Part shown: one piece after another, positions 43,434-64,000 of the stretch | How positions within the stretch are numbered: position 1 is the first letter of the stretch | How the letters are laid out: each line of letters begins with the position of its first letter | NCBI RefSeq assembly: GCF_000732725.1 | Contig: NZ_JPNB01000001.1 | Span: forward strand, 744,001-808,000 | Length of the DNA stretch: 64,000 nt | Direction of reading: 5' to 3' | Origin: Kineothrix alysoides | GTDB lineage: Bacteria > Bacillota > Clostridia > Lachnospirales > Lachnospiraceae | Position numbers and translations under genes: made by a program | Notes under the pieces: model-generated | The model's input: only the letters and a program-made list of their open reading frames with translations | Databases searched by the model: none | Told to the model about the DNA's origin: nothing

Positions 43434-44066
43434 ATGGCGAATTTGAAAATAGGACGTATGGTGCTCGGCATCTGTCAGACTAATTGTTATTTTGTATACA
43501 GGGAGGGATGCGTCGATGTGATATTCATCGATCCTGCGGATTCGGGAGATTATATTTATGAATCCTTGAAGGAAAAAGGCTTTCAGGTAAAGGGAATCCT
43601 CTTGACACATGGACATTTTGACCACATCTGGGGAAGCGAAAGGCTGCGGGAATTAAGTGGGGCGAAAATATATGCCTATAAGGAAGAAAAGGCTCTGTGT
43701 GAGGACTCTGTAAAGAACGTATCCGAACAGGCGGGGCGGGCTTATACGGTAGTGCCGGACGAATATTTGGAGGATGGAGCACGGATAACTATAGCCGGAA
43801 TGACCTGCCGTCTTATCGCAACTCCCGGGCACACGATAGGAGGCTGCTGTTATTATTTCGAGGAGGACAGAATGCTTATAAGCGGCGATACGCTCTTCCA
43901 GGAATCGGTAGGGAGAACGGATCTGCCTACGGGAAGTATGAGCACGCTTACAAGGTCTATTAAAGAAAGGCTGTACGTGCTGCCCGATGAGGTTAAAGTA
44001 TACCCGGGGCATGGGGAACCTACGGAAATTGGATGGGAGAAGAAATATAATGCTTTTTGCCAATGA
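43434..44066 (+). CDS. Metallo-beta-lactamase-fold hydrolase (glyoxalase II-like)
   Basis: The 210-residue protein contains the binuclear zinc motif LLTHGHFDHIWG, the later histidine in ATPGHTIGGCCYY, the bridging aspartate in ISGDTLF and the C-terminal VYPGHGEPT. This is the small GloB-like YcbL group. It lies 26 bases after the RSH gene; apt, RSH and this gene are a common clostridial string. A terminator follows at 44094. Confidence 0.93.
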   Translation: MANLKIGRMVLGICQTNCYFVYREGCVDVIFIDPADSGDYIYESLKEKGFQVKGILLTHGHFDHIWGSERLRELSGAKIYAYKEEKALCEDSVKNVSEQAGRAYTVVPDEYLEDGARITIAGMTCRLIATPGHTIGGCCYYFEEDRMLISGDTLFQESVGRTDLPTGSMSTLTRSIKERLYVLPDEVKVYPGHGEPTEIGWEKKYNAFCQ

Positions 44067-44093
44067 AAGAAATCGATAGAATAAGAAATGTTG

Positions 44094-44134
44094 AAAAAGC
44101 TTGGAACGTTTAGGAAAATGTTCCGGGCTTTTTT
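44094..44134 (+). terminator. Rho-independent terminator after the MBL gene
   Basis: AAAAAGCTTGGAAC (44094-44107) pairs with GTTCCGGGCTTTTT (44120-44133), with internal wobble, and the stem runs into a T-rich tail. Confidence 0.88.
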
Positions 44135-44148
44135 ATATTATTTTGATA

Positions 44149-44178
44149 TTGACAATAGTGTGTGATATACACTATAAT
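44149..44178 (+). promoter_or_regulatory. PadR promoter with embedded operator
   Basis: TTGACA (44149-44154) and TATAAT (44173-44178) are 18 bases apart. An inverted repeat ATAGTGT (44155-44161), seven bases, ACACTAT (44169-44175) fills the spacer. This is the expected layout for autorepression by PadR, whose sites often contain ATGT/ACAT-like or GTGT/ACAC half-sites. Confidence 0.75.
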
Positions 44179-44201
44179 ATGATACACAGGAGGAGAAAGT
44201 A

Positions 44202-44546
44202 ATGGGAGAACTGAATGAAATATTATCATCGCTGATTTTGGAGCTTAGAAGGGGTACAATAGTGCTCAGTGTCATTAGTCAGCTGAATGAGCCGCAGTAC
44301 GGCTATACCCTCGTCAAAAGTATGGAAGAAAAAGGCGTAAGCATAGACACGAACACTTTATATCCGCTGCTGAGAAGATTGGAAAAGCAGGAGCTCCTTG
44401 TAAGTGAATGGGAGACTGACGGAAGTAAGCCGAGGAAATATTATAAGAGAACTGAGTTAGGCGATGTGGTATATGAGAGGCTAACAGCGCAGTGGAGGGA
44501 AATGACGGAGAGCATGAACCGTTTATTGGAGCAGGAAACCATTTAG
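44202..44546 (+). CDS. PadR-family transcriptional regulator
   Basis: The 114-residue protein is a winged helix regulator of the PadR type (LELRRGTIVLSVISQLNEPQYGYTLVKSMEEKGVSIDTNTLYPLLRRLEKQELLVSEW), with a short helical C-terminus for dimerisation. AGGAGG lies before the start. It is followed by a HAAS-domain membrane protein, the usual partner in this regulatory pair, and probably represses its own promoter through the inverted repeat at 44155-44175. Confidence 0.94.
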   Translation: MGELNEILSSLILELRRGTIVLSVISQLNEPQYGYTLVKSMEEKGVSIDTNTLYPLLRRLEKQELLVSEWETDGSKPRKYYKRTELGDVVYERLTAQWREMTESMNRLLEQETI

Positions 44547-44589
44547 GAGCAGGAGACGAAATAAATCCGAGGGAAAGGATGATAGGAAT

Positions 44590-45684
44590 ATGATGAAAGA
44601 AAAGTTATCTAATGAATTGACGGAAAAGTATTTATACGATGTAGTGCGGCGCCTGCCGGAGAAGCAAAGGAAGGATATCGAGCAGGAGCTTAGAACGTTA
44701 ATCGAGGATATGATAGAGGAACGGGAAGGCAGCGGAGAAGTAAGTCGCGAGGAATGTGAAAGAGCGGTACTTACAGAACTCGGCGATCCGGCAAAGATGG
44801 CAAGAAGCTATCGCGGAGACAAAGAAGGGCTGATCAGCGGGGAATATTACGACAGATATTGCTACATTTTAAAAATCGTCCTTCTATGTGCCGGCGCGGC
44901 AATTCTTTTTTCGGATATTATCTCTGCGGTTGTCCACGTAGTGAATAACGAAACATTCGATGCTATCTCTGCGATAGGTTACGAAGTAAATGAGCAGCTA
45001 TTGAGCGGTAGTATGTGGTGGGAGGTATTCGATATAGGAATCACGCTTCCGTCTGCTCTTTTACAAATATTTGGCGTTATAACGCTGATTTTTGCCCTTA
45101 TGCAAAGATATCATGTGAAGCTCGATTTGTCTGAGGAAGAGTGGTCCGTGGAAAAGCTCCCTCAGATTCCGTATAAAAAGGCAATGATAAGCAGGGGCGA
45201 GAGTGCGGTAGGAATCGTCTTCGGAGTGCTGGTAATTATCCTATTCGCTTATAGGCCACAGCTTATGGGAGCATGGATAAGACAAGGAGATGAGATGGTA
45301 TCGATTCCGATTTTCAATTTATCTATATGGGGGAAGGTGCTTCCGTTTTTTATTATCAGTGTTATGGCAGGCATCATCAGCGACTTTGTGAAGCTCGTGG
45401 CAGGGCGGTATAACTATAGAGTGATGGTGACGACTATTGTGATGGATATTGTAGGCTTTATTATGACATTTATATTCATGAAGGTACTGCCTATATGGAA
45501 CAAAGATTTTATGCAGGCATTGCAGCGGGAAACCGGAATTGCCTTTTCCTCAAAGGGAGATTTGCTGACTTATTATAATACAGATATCTTTATTAACGGA
45601 ATTGTAATAGTAATTCTCTTTTTCTTTCTGCTGGACATAGCAACTACGGTTTATTATACTGTAAGATATGGAAATAAGGATTGA
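44590..45684 (+). CDS. HAAS/DUF1700-like domain membrane protein
   Basis: The 364-residue protein starts with a HAAS-type cytoplasmic helical domain (YLYDVVRRLPEKQRKDIEQELRTLIEDM and ELGDPAKMARSYRG). About six hydrophobic helices follow from residue 95 onward. Such proteins are typically encoded beside PadR regulators and may act as membrane sensors or effectors. ATGs at 44590 and 44593 are both possible. Function beyond this is unknown. Confidence 0.85.
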   Translation: MMKEKLSNELTEKYLYDVVRRLPEKQRKDIEQELRTLIEDMIEEREGSGEVSREECERAVLTELGDPAKMARSYRGDKEGLISGEYYDRYCYILKIVLLCAGAAILFSDIISAVVHVVNNETFDAISAIGYEVNEQLLSGSMWWEVFDIGITLPSALLQIFGVITLIFALMQRYHVKLDLSEEEWSVEKLPQIPYKKAMISRGESAVGIVFGVLVIILFAYRPQLMGAWIRQGDEMVSIPIFNLSIWGKVLPFFIISVMAGIISDFVKLVAGRYNYRVMVTTIVMDIVGFIMTFIFMKVLPIWNKDFMQALQRETGIAFSSKGDLLTYYNTDIFINGIVIVILFFFLLDIATTVYYTVRYGNKD

Positions 45685-54059: not shown

Positions 54060-54210
54060 AACGTAGTTTGAAAGTATCCTTAGATGGCATGAAAACTATG
54101 CATGTTTGACCTCGGGTTAGCTAATCTGAAGCATCGGGGGAAACGTGCCGTACGTGCTGTCTTAAGACAATAAAATCTCTGGCTGGCCTAAATCGGCATA
54201 ATATAGTACG

Positions 54211-54240
54211 GCGATATCTCCTTTGATATCGCTGTTTTGC
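54211..54240 (+). terminator. Short hairpin with T-rich tail
   Basis: GCGATATC (54211-54218) pairs with GATATCGC (54225-54232) across TCCTTT, followed by TGTTTTGC. It may terminate the ABC exporter transcript. Confidence 0.6.
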
Positions 54241-54537: not shown

Positions 54538-55464
54538 GTGAGTGATTTGATACATAAAGCGCTGATGCAAAAAGGTGGTATCGTAGCACAACAACTTGCT
54601 CAGGAATTTATCGGTATGGAAATAGGACAGCGTGTTCCTACCATAGAAGATTTTATAAATAAGTATAATGTTCCGCGAGGTACTGTTCAACAGGCTTTAT
54701 TAAAATTAAAAGAGTTTGGTGCCATTGAGTTGGAAGCAAAAGGTCATTTGGGAAGCTTTTTGATCGACATGGATTATACTAAATTGATGGAAATCTGCAG
54801 CTTGGAAAATTTAGTGGGGGTCATGCCGCTTCCATATTCAAAAAGATATGAAGGACTGGCTACAGGAATATATACAACACTGAACCAATATAACGTAGTA
54901 TCGGTGAACCTGGCTTTCATGGGAGGGTCCGACAGACGGATACAAGCTTTGCTTGACGGCAGATATGACTTTGCAGTAATGAGTTTGGCTACGGCAAAGC
55001 ATTATGTAAATGATGGCTATAATATTGAAATAGTTTATAATTTAGGTATGCATACATATGTAAACGCCCATACTTTGATCATGAGAAAAGATTTTAATAC
55101 AGTTCCGAAAAGAATAGGCGTGGACAGAACTTCTTTCGACCAGTTGAGTATGACTACAAAATATTTTAAAAATATGTCAATTGAAATTGTTCCGCTCCAA
55201 TATTCACGTATCATTGAAAATATCAAAAAGAAAAATATTGATGCGGCAATCTGGAGTTTGGAAGAAAAGATTATAAGTGATGATGAGTTGCAATATAAAA
55301 TCATCAATGACGAGGAACAAAAAGGAGATAATACGAAGGCGACGATCATTATTAAAAAAGAAGATGTTACCGTATGTAATTTTTTTAAACGATTTTTTGA
55401 TATAGAAAAAGTACAGCAAATACAAAATGATGTTCTGATGAATGTTATTCTACCTAACTATTGA
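54538..55464 (+). CDS. yhfZ: YhfZ-family transcriptional regulator
   Basis: The 308-residue protein starts at a GTG 7 bases after AAAGAG. It has an N-terminal winged helix (residues 10-75, RVPTIEDFINKYNVPRGTVQQALLKLKEFGAIELEAKGHLGSFL). A substrate-binding-like domain follows (VGVMPLPYSKRYEGLATGIY, GVDRTSFDQLSM). The segments around MPLPYSKRYEGLATG match what I recall of E. coli YhfZ. It is the first gene of a yhf-type cluster and is probably its regulator. A hairpin overlaps its stop. Confidence 0.9.
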   Translation: MSDLIHKALMQKGGIVAQQLAQEFIGMEIGQRVPTIEDFINKYNVPRGTVQQALLKLKEFGAIELEAKGHLGSFLIDMDYTKLMEICSLENLVGVMPLPYSKRYEGLATGIYTTLNQYNVVSVNLAFMGGSDRRIQALLDGRYDFAVMSLATAKHYVNDGYNIEIVYNLGMHTYVNAHTLIMRKDFNTVPKRIGVDRTSFDQLSMTTKYFKNMSIEIVPLQYSRIIENIKKKNIDAAIWSLEEKIISDDELQYKIINDEEQKGDNTKATIIIKKEDVTVCNFFKRFFDIEKVQQIQNDVLMNVILPNY

Positions 55465-55476
55465 TATAGTTAGGTA
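55451..55476 (+). terminator. Perfect 11-bp hairpin overlapping the yhfZ stop
   Basis: TACCTAACTAT (55451-55461), loop TGAT and ATAGTTAGGTA (55466-55476) form a perfect stem. The TGA stop codon begins the loop. The following sequence is A+T-rich but not a clean T-run. Confidence 0.6.
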
Positions 55477-55486
55477 ATTATTTCAA

Positions 55487-55514
55487 ACCAATATACAAAA
55501 AAGAGTATATTGGT
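55487..55514. promoter_or_regulatory. Inverted repeat upstream of yhfY
   Basis: ACCAATATAC (55487-55496), an 8-base purine loop and GTATATTGGT (55505-55514) form a perfect inverted repeat ending 20 bases before the yhfY start. It could be an operator for YhfZ or an RNA hairpin. Confidence 0.5.
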
Positions 55515-55533
55515 AATAAGAAAGGTTAATATC

Positions 55534-55887
55534 ATGGATATTATGGAAAGAATAAATATAATGAAAGATTATGACTTGATAGATCAAATTATTTATAATG
55601 ATTTGGCCGCAATCATAGATGTATTTAAAGAATCCGGTATTTTACTGAATGAAGAAAATGCAGGAATAATGATTACCCATATAGCTTCAGCATTTATACG
55701 CAATAAAACAAAAGAAAAAATAGAATCGCTCGATAGGGAAATTATCAAAGATATGCAAAATGATCCAATGTTTGACGAAGCATGCAGAATTTTTTGTATG
55801 ATAAAATCAAGAATCCAAAATCACTTTAATGAAATAGAAAGAGAATTTGCACTGGTTCATATTTGTACTGTTTTAAATAATATGTAG
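55534..55887 (+). CDS. yhfY: PRD-like domain protein (YhfY)
   Basis: The 117-residue protein is entirely helical, with EENAGIMITHIASAFIRNKTKE around residue 40, which resembles the histidine-containing PRD fold. The C-terminal half contains FALVHICTVLNNM, another PRD-like histidine segment. In E. coli the equivalent gene yhfY also encodes a single PRD domain next to yhfZ. The start at ATG 55534 has AAGAAAGG 8 bases upstream. A regulatory role is likely; no partner kinase or PTS protein is in the window. Confidence 0.82.
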   Translation: MDIMERINIMKDYDLIDQIIYNDLAAIIDVFKESGILLNEENAGIMITHIASAFIRNKTKEKIESLDREIIKDMQNDPMFDEACRIFCMIKSRIQNHFNEIEREFALVHICTVLNNM

Positions 55888-55907
55888 TAAAGGAGTATGT
55901 CTGTAAA

Positions 55908-56264
55908 ATGAAAATTGCAATTGGCGGAATGAAAAAGAATGAAATGGAAAATGAGGTAAAAAAAGCAGCACCGGAAATTGATACCATAATAACCACAGAC
56001 ATTATGGCCGTACAAATGTTAAAAAACGGCAGTGTCGATTATTATTTCGGAGCTTGTGAAAGCGGAGGAGGAGCTGCTATTGCCATACTTATAGGTATGC
56101 TCGGTTATTCGAAGTGCTGTACCGTAGCAAAGAACGGACAAACGGCAAAAAAAGAAGATATAGAAAAATTTATCGCAGAGGGCAAAGTGGCGTTCGGTAT
56201 GGCACATAATACGATTGAAAATACAATACCGATACTGATAGATGCATTAAAGCAGAAAACCTAG
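55908..56264 (+). CDS. yhfU: DUF2620 family protein (YhfU)
   Basis: The 118-residue protein has the DUF2620 pattern: KIAIGGMKKNEMENEVKKAA, SVDYYFGACESGGGAAIAIL and AKNGQTAKKEDIEKFIAEGKVAFGMAHNTIENTIPIL. These segments match E. coli YhfU as I recall it. Its glycine-rich stretch suggests ligand or nucleotide binding, but no function is known. It precedes yhfT closely, as in E. coli, so the pair may act together, perhaps as a transporter with an accessory subunit. Confidence 0.92.
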   Translation: MKIAIGGMKKNEMENEVKKAAPEIDTIITTDIMAVQMLKNGSVDYYFGACESGGGAAIAILIGMLGYSKCCTVAKNGQTAKKEDIEKFIAEGKVAFGMAHNTIENTIPILIDALKQKT

Positions 56265-56304
56265 GGTATGTAAGCATATCTGTATGACTCATTGGGAGGC
56301 AAAA

Positions 56305-57561
56305 ATGAATTTTTTTGAAATATCTATGGTAATGATCCTTTGTGGGGTTACGGCGTTGATTTCTCATATGGGAATGGCTGTATTTCAGGATGGTCTGCGG
56401 CCTATCGTTCCTGAATGTACAGAGGGCAGAATGAAACGAAAGGAACTAAAATCTATTGCATTTGGATTAAGCGTGGGATTCATTGGTTCCGTCGGCTTGG
56501 TACATACTCTCGCTACAGGTCTTTTAAATCCCTGGCTGCTATTTTTAGCCACTGATATATTGGGTATAATGGCACGCAGGAAGTGGACAGCTTTTTTGTA
56601 TGGCGGCATATGGGGGGCAGTATGTTCTATAGGCATCGTGTTGTTATTTGAAACTATTTCATCTTTACCTGTAGATATCATTGGTTCCTTAGATGTTTTA
56701 TCGAAACTTTCTTTTATAGGATTCAGCCTATTTCCGATAGTGGCGGTATATGGACAGCATGGTGCAAGGAAAGGAATGTTCAGTACAGCGGTCATAGGAA
56801 TGGCAGGCTTGCTGTCGAAAATTGCCTTAAACATAGATCCATTGATCATTATAACGGTAACAGGAATTTGTTTACTATATATATATTCCTTTACTAAAGA
56901 TATAAAAGAAAAGACAAATAGAAATATACAATATTATGATGAATTTACGGATAACTATAAAAAGTTAAAAAAAAATGCAGTCTGGTTAATGCTATGTGGC
57001 GGTATTATTTCTGCAGTTGCGGGCATGGGAATATTTGGGGGATCCGAAGTTTCTATTTATATCCTTGCACAGCAGGATAAAACAGCCCGTATATTTGCAT
57101 CGACAGCGGAATTAATACGAAGTCTCGGTTTTATACCCCTTATCACTACAGCGGCTGTCACTACGGGAGTATACGGTGTGGCCGGATTTACACTCTGCTA
57201 TAGCATAGGATATTTAATTCCACATCCGGCAGCGGCAGGTGTGGCAGGAGCGCTGGTGATCTTATTGGAATTGCTGTCGTTAAAAGGCATTGACCGATTT
57301 TTTACAAAATTTCCTTCTGTCCGGGAAACATCGGATCATATACGCAGCTCTATGATGACAGTCATGGAATTCACATTATTGATCGGATCCATGATGGCTG
57401 TATTTAAAATGGGCGGGTATTTAGGATTTATACTTGGTGCAGGATTTTATTTTATAAATGAAGCTACCGGGAAAAAAGTTATGAAGATTGCAATAGGTCC
57501 CCTGTCGGTAATTGCTGCCGGTATAGTTCTGAATATACTTAAATTTACACAATTGATATAA
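56305..57561 (+). CDS. yhfT: YhfT-family polytopic membrane protein
   Basis: The 418-residue protein has about ten to twelve hydrophobic helices with conserved segments VFQDGLRPIVPECTEG, SIAFGLSVGFIGSVG, IFGGSEVSIYILA and SIGYLIPHPAAAGVAG. These agree with E. coli YhfT. The fold suggests a transporter but the substrate has not been identified. GGGAGG stands five bases before the ATG at 56305; the longer frame starting at 56284 has no site. It is followed after 14 bases by php. Confidence 0.93.
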   Translation: MNFFEISMVMILCGVTALISHMGMAVFQDGLRPIVPECTEGRMKRKELKSIAFGLSVGFIGSVGLVHTLATGLLNPWLLFLATDILGIMARRKWTAFLYGGIWGAVCSIGIVLLFETISSLPVDIIGSLDVLSKLSFIGFSLFPIVAVYGQHGARKGMFSTAVIGMAGLLSKIALNIDPLIIITVTGICLLYIYSFTKDIKEKTNRNIQYYDEFTDNYKKLKKNAVWLMLCGGIISAVAGMGIFGGSEVSIYILAQQDKTARIFASTAELIRSLGFIPLITTAAVTTGVYGVAGFTLCYSIGYLIPHPAAAGVAGALVILLELLSLKGIDRFFTKFPSVRETSDHIRSSMMTVMEFTLLIGSMMAVFKMGGYLGFILGAGFYFINEATGKKVMKIAIGPLSVIAAGIVLNILKFTQLI

Positions 57562-57575
57562 AAGTAGGTGATGTT

Positions 57576-58490
57576 ATGATACAAACGGTTTTAGGAGATA
57601 TTTTGCCCGGAGAATTGGGTGTTACAATGTGCCACGAACATATATCAATGGATCTAAGCCATGTAAGACAAGACAAGGATTCTGTTTTTAGGGACAGAGA
57701 GTTAATTTTGGCAGAGTTAACAAAGCTTAAAGATTTTGGCGGCAAGTCTGTTGTTGAAGTGACAAGTGCCGATATGGGCAGAAAAATTGATGATCTGGTG
57801 TATTATTCCACGCAGCTTGGAATCAATATTATAGCGTCTACCGGTGCATATTTAAAACCCTATCATAATGAGTGGATTTTAAATAGCCCTATAGATGAAA
57901 TAGCGCGGTATTTTATAAAGGAAATAACGACGGGTGTTGAAGATACAAATATAAAAGCGGGTATTATAGCCGAAATTGCAACCAGCGGTGAAGTAATATA
58001 TGAAAGTGAAAAAAAAGTATTTTATGCTGCGGGCCTGGCAAGTGCAGCTACAGGCTGTGCGGTCAGTACCCATTGTGATATGGGAGCCAACGGGATAAGC
58101 CAGATCGATATGTTGATAAAGGCAGAAGCTGATCCAAAGAAAATAATACTTGGCCATATAGATTTAGCGGAGGATATAGAATATCAGGTGGAACTATTGG
58201 AACGTGGTGTAAATATAGCTTACGATACCATTGGTAAAGTCACTTATTTACCTGATACAATACGCGCCCGGAATCTGGTAAAACTTATTGATCAGGGCTA
58301 TGAGGACCGGCTGCTTTTATCGCAAGACGTCAGCAGAATTTCCTATATGACAGCATATGGCGGAAAAGGATATACGGCGGTGCTTGGCTGCTTTGTGGAC
58401 ATGCTGGAAGAGATGGGGGTATCACAGGAGAGATTGTGCAAGCTGCTGATAGAGAATCCCGCAAGAATACTAAATATAGAAAAGGAATGA
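57576..58490 (+). CDS. php: Phosphotriesterase homology protein
   Basis: The 304-residue amidohydrolase-superfamily protein belongs to the phosphotriesterase-related family. Metal ligands are visible in MCHEHISMD (HxH), IIAEIATSGE (bridging Glu where phosphotriesterase has a carbamylated Lys), VSTHCDMG (His), ILGHIDL (His) and LLSQDVSR (Asp). E. coli Php has the same bridging Glu, as I recall. Its natural substrate is unknown; hydrolysis of a lactone or phosphoester is plausible. It sits between yhfT and yhfX, which differs from the E. coli order. Confidence 0.94.
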   Translation: MIQTVLGDILPGELGVTMCHEHISMDLSHVRQDKDSVFRDRELILAELTKLKDFGGKSVVEVTSADMGRKIDDLVYYSTQLGINIIASTGAYLKPYHNEWILNSPIDEIARYFIKEITTGVEDTNIKAGIIAEIATSGEVIYESEKKVFYAAGLASAATGCAVSTHCDMGANGISQIDMLIKAEADPKKIILGHIDLAEDIEYQVELLERGVNIAYDTIGKVTYLPDTIRARNLVKLIDQGYEDRLLLSQDVSRISYMTAYGGKGYTAVLGCFVDMLEEMGVSQERLCKLLIENPARILNIEKE

Positions 58491-58494
58491 AAAG

Positions 58495-59673
58495 ATGTTT
58501 TTAGATGACCTGGAGTTAAGAAATCCCAAATTAATAGAATATTCCTTTAAGATGCATCAAAGCGGCAAGATAAATCCCAATACATACATACTCGATCTAG
58601 ATACTATTCTCAATAACAGCAAGGAATTGATTACAGAGGCTAAAAAATATGATATAGAGCCTTATTTTATGTCAAAACAACTTGGGAGAAATCCTTTGGT
58701 TTGTAAAAAACTTATGGGCCTGGGGTTTAAAGGTGCGGTGGTAGTAGATTTTCAAGAAGCTAAAATAATGATTGATAATAATATACCGATTGCACATATC
58801 GGGAATCTAGTACAAATTCCCGACGGGATGCTTAAAAAAGTAATAAGTTACGGTGTAGGGATGATTACCATATTCTCATTGGAAAAGGCTCGCAAAATAG
58901 ATGAAATAGCAAGGCAGCTAGGCATCACTCAAAATATATGCTTAAAATTTTATAATAAAAAGGATTTTCTGTATGATGGACAAAAATCCGGATTTTTGCT
59001 GGAGGATCTGGAATATGTCTTAGCAGAAATACTGAAATTAAAAAATTTGAAGATAGACAGCTTGACTGCATTTCCCTGTTATTTATATGAGCAGAAATCG
59101 GATAAGGTTTTACCTACGGCTAATCTTAAAACAATGCAGTCAGCTCAAAAAAGAATACATAAACTATTCAATTTTGAGCCCAGGTTAAATGTTCCATCCT
59201 GTAATCAGGCCAATCTTATGTATCAGGTTTCGCTGCAGGGAGGCAGCAGCGTGGAACCCGGCAGTTCATTGATGGGAATGACTCCTGATAATGTAAATCA
59301 TACATCCAGAGAAATAGCAGCCATGGTTTACGTGACTGAAGTTTCCCATAATTTTCAGGAGCATGCATTTTGCTATGGAGGAGGAAGCTATTTCAGAGGA
59401 AAAATTGATAAAGCATTGGTAGGAACAGATAAAGATGCTTCAAGGAAAATCAGTGTAATAAAGCCCGCCCCCCAAAATATCGATTACCATATAGAACTAT
59501 CCGAACAAAGTGAAGTTGGTAAAACGGTGCTAATGGCATTTAGAACACAAGTATTTGTTACTCGCAGTGAAGTTGCTGTTATATCGGGATTACAGCAGGA
59601 TAAGCCGAAGATAGAAGGATTTTATACCTCCGGCGGTCAGTTTATATCGGAGAAATCATGGGCAGATTTATAA
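58495..59673 (+). CDS. yhfX: PLP-dependent alanine racemase-like protein YhfX
   Basis: The 392-residue protein has an alanine racemase-type N-terminal barrel. The likely PLP lysine is in PYFMSKQLGRNPLV; other conserved segments are YILDLDTILNNSKEL, AHIGNLVQIP and YVTEVSHNFQEHAFCYGGG. The N-terminus MFLDDLELRNPKLIEY resembles that of E. coli YhfX. A racemase or decarboxylase reaction on an amino acid-like substrate is possible. It starts 4 bases after php and overlaps yhfW by 16 bases, so the genes are co-translated. Confidence 0.93.
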   Translation: MFLDDLELRNPKLIEYSFKMHQSGKINPNTYILDLDTILNNSKELITEAKKYDIEPYFMSKQLGRNPLVCKKLMGLGFKGAVVVDFQEAKIMIDNNIPIAHIGNLVQIPDGMLKKVISYGVGMITIFSLEKARKIDEIARQLGITQNICLKFYNKKDFLYDGQKSGFLLEDLEYVLAEILKLKNLKIDSLTAFPCYLYEQKSDKVLPTANLKTMQSAQKRIHKLFNFEPRLNVPSCNQANLMYQVSLQGGSSVEPGSSLMGMTPDNVNHTSREIAAMVYVTEVSHNFQEHAFCYGGGSYFRGKIDKALVGTDKDASRKISVIKPAPQNIDYHIELSEQSEVGKTVLMAFRTQVFVTRSEVAVISGLQQDKPKIEGFYTSGGQFISEKSWADL

Positions 59674-60857
59674 TAATAGTTTTGGATGGTTTTGGAATAG
59701 GTCAGACAGACGATGTTTTAGAAGTAAGACCAAGTGATAACGGCGCCAACACACTAAAAAGTATTTTGAGTAAATTTCCTGATTTAAAGCTAAGGAATCT
59801 CGAAAAGTTGGGACTGATGAATGCATACGGAGAATCCTCCGAATGTATGCATATGCAAAAAGATGTTACTTATGGTAAAGCCTCTTTAATGCATTATGGA
59901 GCGGATACATTTTTCGGACATCAGGAAATTATGGGAACTTTGCCTCAAAAACCTTTTGCTGAGCCATTCGGGAATAAAATAAACATAATAAAAGATAAGT
60001 TGATCCACAGCGGCTATATGGTTGAAACAATCCGTGTGAATAAACAGTCTTATCTGATGATCAACGATTGTGTTACTGCGGCTGATAATATGGAGTGCGA
60101 TTCAGGACAGGCGTTTAATGTAACAGCCAGTTTGGATTATATATCTTTTGATGAAGTGGTAAAAATCGGTAAATTAGTAAGAAGCATTGCTACGGTTCCA
60201 AGAGTGATCGCTTTCGGCGGCAGGGATATCACAAAGCGGCAGCTAATGGAGAGTGCAGTTGAAAAAGGCTGTTTCGTAGGAATAGACGCGCCTAAGAGCG
60301 GCGTTTACGATAATGATTACCATTGTATCCATCTTGGTTATGGCGTGGATCCGAAGCTCCAGATCCAAACTATTTTATCCGATGCACATATACCGGTATT
60401 TATGGTAGGAAAAGCTGCAGATGTTATTCAAAATAAAAAGGGCACATCGATTTCGCTTGTACCTACCGACCAAGTATTAGAACAAACATTAAATATAGTA
60501 AAGCAGAACAAAAATATGTTTGTATGCGCCAATGTTCAGGAGACAGACTTAAGCGGTCATTCACAAGATGTACAAAGGTACAAAGAAGTACTTTTAATGG
60601 CTGATAAAGGGATTGGTGAAATAAGGAATAATTTGGAAAAAGAAGATGTTATGATCGTTATGGCTGATCACGGAAATGACCCTCTGATAGGACATTCAAA
60701 GCATACAAGGGAAAAAGTACCGCTGCTCATATATTCTCCCAACAAAACAGGCTTTATTGGTGAAAGAAAATCGCTGTCAGATGTAGCGGCAACGGCGGCA
60801 AAGTATTTTAAGGTTCCAAGCCCTCAAAACGGTAAAGCAATTTTAGATATTTTTTAA
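59658..60857 (+). CDS. yhfW: Phosphopentomutase-like protein YhfW
   Basis: The 399-residue protein belongs to the alkaline phosphatase/phosphopentomutase superfamily. The metal-binding start is IIIVLDGFGIGQTDDV, the catalytic Thr is likely in GADTFFGHQEIMG, and later ligands are in NVQETDLSGHSQD and VMADHGNDPLIGHSKHTRE. It matches E. coli YhfW. It could transfer a phosphate within a sugar phosphate. It overlaps yhfX by 16 bases and is followed by the GH20-like gene after 82 bases. Confidence 0.94.
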   Translation: MGRFIIIVLDGFGIGQTDDVLEVRPSDNGANTLKSILSKFPDLKLRNLEKLGLMNAYGESSECMHMQKDVTYGKASLMHYGADTFFGHQEIMGTLPQKPFAEPFGNKINIIKDKLIHSGYMVETIRVNKQSYLMINDCVTAADNMECDSGQAFNVTASLDYISFDEVVKIGKLVRSIATVPRVIAFGGRDITKRQLMESAVEKGCFVGIDAPKSGVYDNDYHCIHLGYGVDPKLQIQTILSDAHIPVFMVGKAADVIQNKKGTSISLVPTDQVLEQTLNIVKQNKNMFVCANVQETDLSGHSQDVQRYKEVLLMADKGIGEIRNNLEKEDVMIVMADHGNDPLIGHSKHTREKVPLLIYSPNKTGFIGERKSLSDVAATAAKYFKVPSPQNGKAILDIF

Positions 60858-60939
60858 AAGCAGTAGTGTGAAAATGTATTTTTAACATACAGATTTGTGC
60901 CCGCAGTTCAAACTTTGCAGGCGATGAGAAAGGATTTTT

Positions 60940-62793
60940 ATGAGTAATATTAATTTATTGAATTATATAACTAAATATGAAGCGGCAGCAGGTTACTTCG
61001 ATTATAAACAAATTTCCATGCCTCAATATACTGAATTTAATATATTAAATCTAATAAAAATCATTTTTCCGGAGGGTATAGAAGAAAGTAATGCTCATAC
61101 CGTTGATTTTGAGCAAACAGATCATATTGTTCCTCAGGGATATCGGCTGAGTATCAAGCCAAAAAGTATAAAGGTGACTTATAATACTCTTTCCGGTGCA
61201 GCTTATTCACTGATTACATTAAAGCATCTTGCAATGCAGGCAGAAAATAAGATTCCCTGCGGTGAATATATTGATGAGCCGACGTTCCCGGTTCGGGGTG
61301 TCCTTTATGATATCAGCCGCGATAAGGTACCTAAGTTAGAAACATTGTTAAGGCTGACAGATATCATATTCGAACTGAAATACAACCAGCTTCAGCTATA
61401 TGTGGAAGGACTTACTTTTGAATATGAATGTTTTAAGAACTATCTGACAGAGCAGGGCTATCTGACAAAACAGGAAATTCTGACTTTACAGGAATATTGT
61501 AAGCAAAGATTTATTGATTTGGTACCGAATCAAAATACACTAGGTCATATGGCACCGTGGCTTGCAATAGATGATTTTTCTCCACTTAGCAAAAATCCCG
61601 AGGGCGAACTTGCTTTTGGCGTATTGCAGCCGTCGGCAACGTTAGATCCAGGGAAGCCGGAAAGCAGACAATTTATAAAAGCCATAACGGAAGAGATGTT
61701 AAGTGTATTTAACAGTGATAATTATAATGTAAATCTGGATGAAGCATTCGGTATCCAAACAGGGGAGGAATACAGCAACTGGGTTGCTTACATGGAATCA
61801 CTTTGTAAGATTTATGACAAAAATATGCTTATGTGGAGCGATATGTTAAACACATATCCGGAAATCAAATCAGTGCTCCCCCGTAATGCAGTATTACTTG
61901 ACTGGGGATATGAAGCTGATTATCCGTTTGATATGGAATGTAAAATACTTGCAAAAGAAGGATATAAATTTTATGTATGTCCGGGGACTTCCGCTTGGCG
62001 TTCGATTTCAGGCAGGACAGATAATATGATCAAAAATACGGACAATGCAATTGTATCTGCCATCCGGTACGGTGCCGAGGGAATCATCGCTGCCGAGTGG
62101 GGAGATTGTGGACACTGGCAGACATATCCGATCGCGATTACAGGTATTGCCTATATAGGCCTTTGTGCGTGGAGCGGCAAGCCTCTTAACAGATCTGTTT
62201 TAACCGGCTACCTGAACGATCAGGTTTATGGCGACGAGTCAAAGCAAATAGGAGACCTATTGTATGATCTGGGCAACCTTTACCTCGATGACGAACTTAT
62301 GCTGTTAAACGGAACCTTTGCTTATCATTATTATTGTATGGGGATTGCGTCGAAGGAGCAAAAACAAAGTTATATAAAAGCCTTGCTCGATTGGATGATA
62401 CCTTATGCGGAACGCTTTGAGCAAGAAGGTGAAAAAGAAATAGTGAAATACTTAAAAGCTCCGTTAAAGGAGAATTACAGTAAACAGCTTCAATTTATTG
62501 AAAATCAAAAATCAAAAATACAAAAGCTTCACTTAAATTGTGGGGATAAGAAAACAATAATTTTCGAATTGTATTTAACCGCCGCTATGCTTGAATTCTC
62601 TCTTGCAATAGCGATATATATCGAAAATCCGGATAAATCTATGTTAATGGAGATGAAGCCGGCTTTGGAGGAGATCATAGTAAAATTCAGAAAAAACTGG
62701 TTTGAACGCAACAAGAGCGGCGGACTGGAAAAAAGCATGCAGAATTTATTTGAAATAAAAAATCAGATTGAGAATGCTTTAAGTAGTTTATGA
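60940..62793 (+). CDS. Cytoplasmic GH20-like beta-N-acetylhexosaminidase
   Basis: The 617-residue protein has an N-terminal GH20b-like domain (residues 1-112, QGYRLSIKPKSIKVTY) and a GH20 TIM barrel starting at FPVRGVLYDISRDKVPKLETL. The catalytic Asp-Glu pair is at about residues 267-268 in NVNLDEAFG. Other family features are LYVEGLTFE and VPNQNTLGHM. There is no signal peptide, so the substrate must be imported. AAAGG precedes the ATG. Its position between yhfW and a sugar-binding protein ties it to the yhf cluster; amino-sugar specificity is inferred. Confidence 0.85.
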   Translation: MSNINLLNYITKYEAAAGYFDYKQISMPQYTEFNILNLIKIIFPEGIEESNAHTVDFEQTDHIVPQGYRLSIKPKSIKVTYNTLSGAAYSLITLKHLAMQAENKIPCGEYIDEPTFPVRGVLYDISRDKVPKLETLLRLTDIIFELKYNQLQLYVEGLTFEYECFKNYLTEQGYLTKQEILTLQEYCKQRFIDLVPNQNTLGHMAPWLAIDDFSPLSKNPEGELAFGVLQPSATLDPGKPESRQFIKAITEEMLSVFNSDNYNVNLDEAFGIQTGEEYSNWVAYMESLCKIYDKNMLMWSDMLNTYPEIKSVLPRNAVLLDWGYEADYPFDMECKILAKEGYKFYVCPGTSAWRSISGRTDNMIKNTDNAIVSAIRYGAEGIIAAEWGDCGHWQTYPIAITGIAYIGLCAWSGKPLNRSVLTGYLNDQVYGDESKQIGDLLYDLGNLYLDDELMLLNGTFAYHYYCMGIASKEQKQSYIKALLDWMIPYAERFEQEGEKEIVKYLKAPLKENYSKQLQFIENQKSKIQKLHLNCGDKKTIIFELYLTAAMLEFSLAIAIYIENPDKSMLMEMKPALEEIIVKFRKNWFERNKSGGLEKSMQNLFEIKNQIENALSSL

Positions 62794-62801
62794 CCCTGTT
62801 A

Positions 62802-62819
62802 ATATTGCAATAGCAATAT
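62802..62819 (+). promoter_or_regulatory. Small hairpin between GH20-like and binding-protein genes
   Basis: ATATTGC and GCAATAT pair across AATA, 25 bases before the binding-protein start. It may be an operator or an intercistronic RNA stem. Confidence 0.4.
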
Positions 62820-62844
62820 AAATAAAAAATCATAGGAGGTTATC

Positions 62845-64000
62845 ATGAAGAATTCAAAAAGTTTTATGGCTGTCATTTTATGTATGCTCATAGTCTTATC
62901 AGGCTGCGGAGCCCAAAATGGCACAGCGGCACCGGTAAACGATGTAGAGAGCAGCACACAGGAGGAAAGTGCAAAAAAGGAAATCACACTTAAAACAGTA
63001 AGTATGTTTGGTGCAACAGACCCCGCATTGGAAGTTTATAACCAAACAGTGGAACAATTTAAAAAGGATAATTCAAATATTAAAATAGTTGATGAATCTT
63101 CAGCATCTAATGAAGAGTGGAAGTCAAGAATAAAAGCCGACTTTGCAGTGGGTAATGAGCCGGATGTTATTTTATACTTTACGGATGCAAACAGCTATGA
63201 GTTAATAGAAAAAGGCAGTTTTGTGGATATCGAAACGATACGTAAAGACTATCCGGATTTTGTAGACCATATTTTCCCTCATACTTTTACAAACGCACCG
63301 GACGGAAAGCAATATGCCGTTCCCACACGCGGTTTCTATGAAGCATTGTTCTGCAACAAAGATCTTTTTGATCAATATAATCTGGAACTGCCGACAAGCT
63401 GGGATAAGCTTTTGACAGCGGTAGAAACATTTAATCAGAATGGTATCGTTCCTTTTGCAGTGAGCTTTTCCGATGTACCGCATTATATGATAGAGCATTT
63501 GGTCTTGGCCGCAGGCGGAATCGATGACCATAAGGCAGTACCGGCTTCACCGGATGAAATACCTGATAGCTGGATCACGGGTATGGAGCAGCTTAGGGTT
63601 CTGAATGATATGGGTGCATTTCCTGTAGACGTGAATGCTACTACTTATCCGTTGGTAGGAGAGATGTTTTATGGAAAACAGGCTGCTATGACAATTGACG
63701 GTTCCTGGTTCATGGGCGGTATTGAGGATAAGGAAAATGTTGTTGTTATGCCCTTCCCCTCAATGGTTAAGGAAAACAGTGAAGAAATAATAGCAGGGTT
63801 TACGAGCGGATGGTATATAACGAAAAAAGCATGGGATGACCCGGATAAACGCCAAGCATGTGTAGATTTCGTCGAAATGGTTTCTTCTCCTGAATTTTTG
63901 GCTAAGATCACTACAGTTGCACCATGTGAAATCCCTGTACCGTCAGATATGACCGTACTTGACCAGTCCGGATTCGATACTTTTGTAAATGCAGGAGAAA
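62845..64000 (+). CDS. Sugar ABC transporter binding lipoprotein, 3'-truncated by window end
   Basis: The frame is open from the ATG at 62845 (AGGAGG 8 bases upstream) to the end of the window, about 385 codons. The lipoprotein signal ends in the lipobox LSGCG with the cysteine near residue 22. The rest is a family 1 extracellular solute-binding fold (NQTVEQFKKDNSNIKIVDE, FAVGNEPDVILYFTDAN, AMTIDGSWFMGGIED). It is probably the first gene of a transporter whose permeases lie outside the window. A 7-bp hairpin (62802-62819) lies between it and the GH20-like gene. Confidence 0.93.
   Translation, partial: MKNSKSFMAVILCMLIVLSGCGAQNGTAAPVNDVESSTQEESAKKEITLKTVSMFGATDPALEVYNQTVEQFKKDNSNIKIVDESSASNEEWKSRIKADFAVGNEPDVILYFTDANSYELIEKGSFVDIETIRKDYPDFVDHIFPHTFTNAPDGKQYAVPTRGFYEALFCNKDLFDQYNLELPTSWDKLLTAVETFNQNGIVPFAVSFSDVPHYMIEHLVLAAGGIDDHKAVPASPDEIPDSWITGMEQLRVLNDMGAFPVDVNATTYPLVGEMFYGKQAAMTIDGSWFMGGIEDKENVVVMPFPSMVKENSEEIIAGFTSGWYITKKAWDDPDKRQACVDFVEMVSSPEFLAKITTVAPCEIPVPSDMTVLDQSGFDTFVNAGE

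Follow-up and report, generated by a model that had tools for sequence, protein, structure and literature searches.

A modified yhf operon of Kineothrix alysoides with adjoining GH20 and CUT1 importer genes, and its tentative connection to hexosamine-containing conjugates

The yhf operon of Escherichia coli K-12, yhfZYXW-php-yhfUTS, consists of eight gene types, and structures have been solved for three of its products, i.e., Php (1bf6, 4lef), YhfX (4kbx), and YhfS (4j8l). In the literature as searched at the level of titles and abstract openings, no functional work on the operon was seen. Considered here is a version of that operon from Kineothrix alysoides (family Lachnospiraceae; GCF_000732725.1; genome of 4.68 Mb), as found in a stretch of 64,000 nucleotides (contig NZ_JPNB01000001.1, 744001-808000) which is referred to as the ‘window’. 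Seven of the eight E. coli gene types are present, and these are followed by a GH20-family gene, a gene for a sugar-binding lipoprotein (solute-binding protein; SBP), and genes for two ATP-binding cassette (ABC) permeases, the last two lying beyond the window. Window order thus is Z-Y-U-T-php-X-W-GH20-SBP-permease-permease, with features as follows (PLP being pyridoxal phosphate).

54208..54235, plus strand: terminator-like hairpin (consensus scan) between the yhf operon and ABC exporter genes (by eye) upstream of it
54538..55464, plus strand: yhfZ, GntR/HTH_41 regulator with a YhfZ C-terminal domain (YhfZ_C 4e-64; NF041241 339.7 bits, cutoff 260)
55534..55887 (about), plus strand: yhfY, a single PRD domain (Pfam PRD 20.3 bits, slightly under the cutoff of 23)
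55908..56264, plus strand: yhfU, DUF2620 (1.3e-39)
56284..57561, plus strand: yhfT, polytopic membrane protein, putative transporter (1.6e-120)
57576..58490, plus strand: php (yhfV), phosphotriesterase-family metallohydrolase (PTE 8.2e-66)
58495..59673, plus strand: yhfX, fold-III PLP enzyme (YhfX-like_C 4.7e-36)
59658..60857, plus strand: yhfW, phosphopentomutase-type mutase (PRK12383 3.7e-158)
60858..60939, plus strand: gap of 82 bp between yhfW and the GH20 gene, without terminator-like site or stable fold (z 0.11)
60940..62793, plus strand: GH20-family gene (PF00728 8.5e-13, 48.8 bits against a cutoff of 22.3)
62845..64140, plus strand (window ends at 64000): CUT1-type solute-binding lipoprotein
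64210-65097 and 65081-65923, beyond the window: two BPD_transp_1 permeases, overlapping each other
from about 65926: hairpin 3' of the last permease

With yhfZ, yhfT, yhfU, yhfX, and php homologues all in one unit, the locus is a member of the yhf operon type. All nine reading frames from yhfZ to the SBP are intact, that of the SBP running past the window's end. Profile scores uphold the identities and coordinates of the seven yhf genes as these were given in a preliminary description of this DNA, and they likewise bear out its placing of a GH20-like gene and a sugar-binding lipoprotein next to them (PF00728; SBP from 62845). Permeases, which it suggested might be sought further downstream, are found there, i.e., the two listed. 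Gene order, which that description took to differ from that of E. coli, does so in that U-T precede php, but X precedes W in both (E. coli being Z-Y-X-W-php-U-T-S). Nor is the window's order unique, Z-Y-U-T-php-X-W being seen also in two other loci (L081 and L113). The window version differs from the E. coli operon additionally in lacking yhfS, in a Php which scores 222 bits against the E. coli-type equivalog PRK09875, under the cutoff of 486, in a YhfX which is altered at four conserved positions, and in the appended GH20 and CUT1 genes.

The reading favored here, which is held tentatively and at somewhat less than an even chance, is that of a horizontally acquired, modified, 11-gene yhf operon, probably co-transcribed, which functions in the import and breakdown of a hexosamine-containing conjugate. 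That yhf operons have amino sugars as their substrate class is, from gene neighborhoods, a reasonable and testable hypothesis, one which is based mainly on the recurrence of nagB (glucosamine-6-phosphate deaminase) within such operons.

That recurrence is seen among 100 yhf loci, denoted by ‘L’ numbers: L016-L026 (11), L042-L050 (9), and L081-L160 (80). Excluded were L027, with a sub-threshold YhfT match, and L041, which is the reference locus of E. coli K-12. Of 364 places found in named genomes the best 80 were taken, and these lean toward close YhfT relatives, being rich in Enterobacterales; the other loci come from a phylum survey, a family survey, and two plasmid records. Due to repeats (L142 is L047, L147 is L043, and L159 is L023) and overlaps (L155 and L156 with L146 and L136), there are about 95 distinct places, and some of the 100 stretches stop at contig ends. 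In the phylum survey 12 of 398 genomes have YhfT over cutoff, and in the family survey 8 of 397, both figures including the window genome. Within contiguous blocks YhfU and YhfT are present in all 100 loci (YhfT having served as bait), Php and YhfX in 94 each, YhfZ in 92, YhfY in 89, YhfW in 87, and YhfS in 60. A second, minimal Z-php-U-T copy adjoins the full operon in Photobacterium (L155 and L156, on the same contigs as L146 and L136, respectively).

By hidden Markov model, yhfS is matched in 61 of these loci and not, within the stretches covered, in the other 39, among which are loci of Vibrio and Yersinia and five of Bacillota (L081, L082, L085, L089, L113), and yhfS therefore is not a strict defining feature of the yhf operon. 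Its absence from the window, as previously described, holds as well for the 18 kb downstream, where no yhfS-like frame is seen, and a YhfS of another family member (367 residues) finds no match in the whole genome, this being a single protein search without a positive control. Seven Yersinia loci (L084, L086, L087, L088, L090, L099, L100) consist of Z-Y-X-php-U-T, with neither yhfW nor yhfS, so that the set X, php, U, and T can exist independently of those genes.

In 6 of the 100 loci nagB lies directly 3' of a co-oriented yhfW or yhfX, either overlapping it or within 60 bp, and scores 291-411 bits against a NagB equivalog cutoff of 236.9:

L020: nagB, 307 bits, overlaps yhfW
L044: nagB, 291 bits, 1 bp after yhfW
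L046: nagB, 293 bits, 60 bp after yhfW
L144 (Vibrio comitans): nagB, 411 bits, overlaps yhfW
L148 (Pullulanibacillus): nagB, 310 bits, 35 bp after yhfX
L153 (Thalassobacillus): nagB, 294 bits, 18 bp after yhfX

Those of L044 and L144 were counted from their coordinates, the adjacency rule having excluded them (due to an overlapping frame kept and a 345-bp gap to yhfU, respectively). Not counted were L049 (about 4.5 kb from yhfW and on the other strand) and L103 (weak, 5e-11). As L044 and L046 are related, and so too L148 and L153, these nagB genes represent at least four lineages. By chance only about 0.04 such neighbors would be expected in 100 loci, by a hand estimate from 25 over-cutoff nagB genes in 20 yhf genomes of about 3000 genes each. 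The genome carrying L044 (G462) has no over-cutoff nagB other than that of the operon; the window genome also has one over-cutoff nagB, outside of its yhf operon (276 bits). Flanking genes which are common to up to 24 enterobacterial loci represent conserved synteny outside of the block, except in L149, where they were drawn in by the gap rule.

Among non-core genes in the contiguous blocks, only an amidase recurs more often than nagB. This is a short, divergent amidase-signature gene, present in 15 of the 100 loci (L017-L024, L042, L044-L046, L050, L083, L159), all of the window's phylum or of Fusobacteriota. It is over the Pfam cutoff in one of three tested, and neither the E. coli K-12 operon nor the window has it.

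Gaps between genes are small along the whole of the window block, those toward its 3' end being 82 bp between yhfW and GH20, 51 bp between GH20 and the SBP, and 69 bp between the SBP and the first permease, with the permeases overlapping. Within the yhfW-GH20 gap a consensus scan finds no terminator-like site, and folding finds no stable structure, whereas directly 3' of the last permease there is a strong hairpin of 13 bp (-27.8 kcal/mol, z -6.66). Given these three observations, the simplest reading is that yhfZ through the second permease probably form one co-transcribed unit of 11 genes. In that scan, terminator-like sites are about as frequent as chance would have it (7 found versus a shuffled mean of 6.6). 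An inverted repeat, with perfectly matched arms of 11 bp and a loop of 4 bases, spans the yhfZ stop codon, 5' of yhfY (55451-55476), and could be an operator or attenuator.

The whole of this block may have arrived from elsewhere. A hemW-like radical-SAM gene, named by eye, follows the block and has a match in 16 of 16 genus genomes, several of these matches being partial and one (G801; 35% identity, 3.6e-30) probably a paralogue. The DNA upstream of that gene was compared in 6 of 15 congeners. In all six, homologues of window 43434-45684 precede the hemW-like gene, separated from it by at most three unrelated frames, while window 46233-65923 has no match at the corresponding locus in any of the six. 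The flanks being kept and the intervening DNA not, the yhf-GH20-ABC block is seen from these comparisons to sit in an insertion of about 20 kb (46233 to about 66 kb), whether from one event or several. Also in the insertion are genes for an iron alcohol dehydrogenase, an HbpS-like protein, a 446-residue HTH_38 protein, and two ABC exporters (by eye); HTH_38 is a domain known from IS30 transposases. Downstream of the permeases there is an intergenic stretch and then three housekeeping genes, again named by eye (HemW/HemZ-like, hisS, aspS).

The mutase-type step of the preliminary description gains support from conserved residues of YhfW. That protein aligns end to end with the phosphopentomutase of PDB entry 3m8w (8e-27) and keeps D10, T84, D297, H301, D337, H338, and H349, which are the positions of the threonine nucleophile and two-metal ligands in that enzyme. 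YhfW is like DeoB in this alignment and in these positions, but unlike it in equivalog score, which at 147 bits is far under the cutoff of 341. Php in turn has H20, H22, E133, H166, H194, and D251, which are each kept in 86 of 86 aligned sequences and are the metal-ligand positions of the phosphotriesterase family, i.e., HxH, a bridging acid, two histidines, and an aspartate. A single Php protein, used as query in a first scan of the genome contigs, found no relative. The GH20 protein has a D267-E268 pair which aligns with known GH20 proteins, and no signal peptide was seen on it by eye. His49 of YhfY is present in 64 of 64 aligned sequences.

YhfU is predicted to fold like ribose-5-phosphate isomerase B (RpiB). 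An AlphaFold model built from 33 sequences (predicted local distance difference test, pLDDT, 95.8) has, as its top four Foldseek matches, RpiB proteins (E 2.8e-3 to 4.9e-3, probability 1.00, template-modeling (TM) scores of 0.62-0.71), with a fifth RpiB at rank 9; the others among the 50 matches listed have TM scores of at most about 0.54. YhfU residues C50, G53, and G55 are invariant in 33 aligned sequences and kept in at least 97% of 99, and the C50-x-[ST]-G-x-G loop that they form coincides with the CGTGxG loop of RpiB, its second position being N, E, Q, or H rather than Gly. YhfU in these regards, i.e., predicted fold and loop, is like the RpiB/LacAB sugar-phosphate isomerases, but differs from them in having about 14% identity, in lacking their N-terminal Asp-His pair, and in Foldseek E values no better than 2.8e-3. 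For YhfT, modeled from 30 sequences (pLDDT 87), no fold match of note is found in the PDB, the 50 listed of 523 Foldseek matches all having TM scores of 0.20 or less. Two other candidates were set aside. One is YhfT-YhfU as a IIC-IIB pair of the phosphotransferase system (PTS), rejected as YhfU best matches RpiB and no enzyme IIC is named among the 50 YhfT matches listed. The other is YhfT as a DUF4311-DUF4310 fusion, which is unsupported (P 0.38 and 0.07).

A further system with which yhf may be compared is of the EF_0829-EF_0840 type, which has an SFCGS protein (EF_0830), DUF4310/4311/4312, a SelA-like PLP enzyme, a KDGP aldolase, a PRD protein, and an amidohydrolase. Alike in the two are a small PRD protein, a small Cys-loop protein, a membrane protein, a PLP enzyme, and a metal hydrolase, and a PtsI gene is found with both, i.e., in the EF_0830-type locus L243 and in yhf locus L085, where the PtsI frame overlaps the end of yhfW. 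Unlike are that YhfT has no detectable relation to DUF4310/4311 and that yhf has a phosphomutase rather than an aldolase. All three pairwise hhalign alignments among YhfU, EF_0830, and RpiB bring the Cys loops into register, those of EF_0830 with YhfU (P 0.0014, probability 17.6%) and with RpiB (P 0.0021, probability 13.5%) being weak. EF_0830 protein is over cutoff in 3 of 250 family genomes; by Pfam one of these loci (L242) has a KDGP aldolase, a SelA-like enzyme, DUF4310, DUF4311, an SFCGS protein, and an amidohydrolase, and the frames of L241 and L243 are similar as judged by eye. The operon of L243 (12942-14561) has its own PtsI (Pfam) along with an HPr-like frame (by eye). The window operon has none of the markers of this type (KDGP aldolase, SelA-like, DUF4310-4312), and TIGR03577 is unmatched in the genome. 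By analogy, this partial likeness agrees with an amino-sugar or amino-sugar-acid substrate, without being proof of it.

As a pathway, the favored reading would run as follows. The CUT1 importer, i.e., the SBP and two permeases, would bring in a glycoside; as no ABC ATPase is encoded in the yhf-GH20-ABC block, that subunit presumably would be shared with other importers. Within the cytoplasm the GH20 enzyme would remove a terminal N-acetylhexosamine, while YhfT would import, or instead export, the core yhf compound. Php, as an apparently intact binuclear-metal hydrolase, would cut an amide, ester, or phosphoester bond; YhfX would perform PLP chemistry on an amino-acid-like part; and YhfW would shift phosphate within the released sugar, e.g., from hexosamine-1-phosphate to the 6-phosphate. 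RpiB-like YhfU may isomerize a sugar phosphate, and NagB, encoded elsewhere in the window genome and inside yhf operons of other bacteria, would deaminate hexosamine-6-phosphate. YhfZ and the PRD protein YhfY would regulate the unit. More specifically, though rather unlikely in all of its parts together, yhf may free a hexosamine phosphate from an amino-sugar conjugate linked to an amino acid, perhaps through a phosphodiester, with YhfW a phosphohexosaminomutase of DeoB fold, YhfU a new RpiB-like branch, and NagB the exit. The window lineage in that case would have lost yhfS, remodeled YhfX, and added a GH20-CUT1 ‘front end’ which feeds the pathway from a glycan.

Against a hexosamine-directed pathway stand the points of this paragraph as well as those concerning GH20 distribution, other neighbors, the missing yhfS, and the altered YhfX, which are taken up with the alternatives below. 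That nagB lies inside the operon is so in only 6 of 100 loci, and its presence over cutoff in 20 of 20 yhf genomes versus 4 of 14 controls, the latter not matched to family, proves nothing. For YhfU, no Foldseek match reaches E 0.001, the hhalign comparison with RpiB is weak (P 0.021, probability 2.3%), and in a search of its profile against PDB sequences the RpiB-type chains, at E 0.25-0.6, fall below two fumarases, with none significant. The Asp-His pair which YhfU is missing is important in RpiB. Among neighbors of other yhf operons, upstream of L081 there are an ethanolamine ammonia-lyase, a KDPG aldolase, and two PfkB kinases, and behind php in L082 is a tyrosine-phosphatase-like gene, none of these being amino-sugar-specific; the pyruvate-formate-lyase-like enzyme after L113 is unrelated to amino sugars.

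The foremost alternative, which has a real though minority chance of being correct, is that two functionally unrelated modules lie next to each other, that is, a yhf operon and a generic GH20-CUT1 glycan module, with at most co-transcription by read-through. A profile of the window GH20 plus 12 relatives finds GH20 in none of the 100 other yhf loci, so that the link is based on one genome, and CUT1 permeases are present in just one, L120 of Vibrio tubiashii, where neighboring glycerate kinase and glycerophosphodiesterase genes imply that the importer is Ugp-like. A conserved linkage of GH20 and binding protein with yhf, on which the preliminary description had built, thus is not borne out for GH20, and the combination of GH20, CUT1, and yhf, as far as seen, is unique and private to the window lineage. 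Of 200 genomes of the family, 34 have GH20 relatives, as do 10 of 16 of the genus, both figures including the window genome; apart from the window's own, none exceeds 37% identity in the family, and the best congener is at 34%. In L171, L176, and L174, this last being the window genome's own paralogue, related GH20 genes lie near other CUT1 permeases, and no yhf gene is seen in the stretches covered; L171 and L174 share the module's gene types at GH20 identities of 33% and 28%, respectively. On the other hand, the GH20 segment does not carry its own regulator, the junction between the modules is free of terminator-like sites and stable folds while a strong hairpin follows them, both lie in the same insertion, and amino sugars are independently suggested by the nagB genes of yhf operons elsewhere. 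On the description's concern that these genes might form a separate unit, junction, hairpin, and insertion speak for linkage, but co-occurrence elsewhere does not, and the amino-sugar class that it proposed similarly draws support from nagB rather than from recurrence of GH20 or ABC genes.

A different and unlikely possibility is that the yhf core acts on an amino-acid conjugate which contains phosphate (phosphomonoester or phosphodiester) and of which an amino sugar is but one of several attachable groups, these being removed or salvaged, according to niche, by variable neighbors, i.e., phosphatases, glycerophosphodiesterase (GDPD), amidase, GH20, sulfatase, or nagB. Consistent with this, yhfT is directly followed by a phosphatase gene, of PAP2 or class-B acid type, in L101, L114, L124, and L133 (PAP2 being behind yhfT in three loci and class B in two), and in L153 nagB is followed by a 2-phosphosulpholactate-type phosphatase, none of these being amino-sugar-specific; in L120 the GDPD and Ugp-like importer precede yhfZ, and these, with the glycerate kinase, are unrelated to amino sugars. 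Also consistent with this possibility are the 5'-nucleotidase/PfkB genes after yhfW in L045, the amidase-signature gene of 15 loci, and the two PLP enzymes of most yhf loci. Other than the amidase, however, these neighbors are lineage-specific, at one to three loci each, versus at least four lineages for nagB. Comparably improbable is that the window copy is repurposed or decaying, its canonical reaction lost. Along with yhfS being absent, its YhfX has H104N, G189S, H257S, and T262M, thereby departing from the H, G, H, and T found in 92 or more of 94 aligned sequences (the window's included). N104, S189, S257, and M262 occur in no other of those sequences, among which just two further departures at these positions are seen, i.e., H257N in L081, the closest YhfX relative in the alignment (50% identity and likewise without yhfS), and G189C in L082. 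With two nearly invariant histidines lost, the chemistry of the window YhfX may be altered. Yet all frames are intact, the Php metal ligands, YhfW catalytic residues, YhfU cysteine, and YhfX lysine (Lys61, kept in 94 of 94) are retained, and absence of yhfS is common among yhf loci.

Other neighbors of yhf operons are varied. A lactose/cellobiose-family PTS with DUF7916 accompanies them in V. halioticoli, V. ezurae, and two Photobacterium, its partner being a porin in Vibrio (Pfam, V. ezurae) or a CBM5/12 protein in Photobacterium (Pfam, P. frigidiphilum). The latter, a protein of 731-771 residues behind yhfW (L146 13825-16140, L136 13944-16139), is a possible novel glycosidase; only CBM5/12-type domains are recognized in that of P. 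frigidiphilum. The V. comitans operon neighbors a sulfatase and a sulfatase maturase, and near L107 there are GH32 and EIIBC genes. The frl genes beside the E. coli yhf operon were set aside as a clue, the extra frames taken as frl, between yhfS and a 457-residue frame (cysG by size), being seen in E. coli locus L134 only and not in E. coli locus L137. Beside the nearest congener homologues of the window GH20 is a 503-residue protein (L180 963-2474, L181 7283-8794), which is DUF4127 in L180, with that of L181 likened to it by length only.

The E. coli yhf operon, three of whose proteins have been solved structurally, is an orphan. Recurrent nagB, the RpiB-like prediction for DUF2620, and the intact phosphomutase residues of YhfW together give it a concrete candidate substrate class, and YhfW or YhfU would be the first yhf enzymes to assay, with hexosamine and pentose phosphates. 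The window provides what would be a natural version of yhf which combines a glycosidase and importer with an altered YhfX, and as such it may help to separate the core yhf reaction from the feeding of substrate to it.

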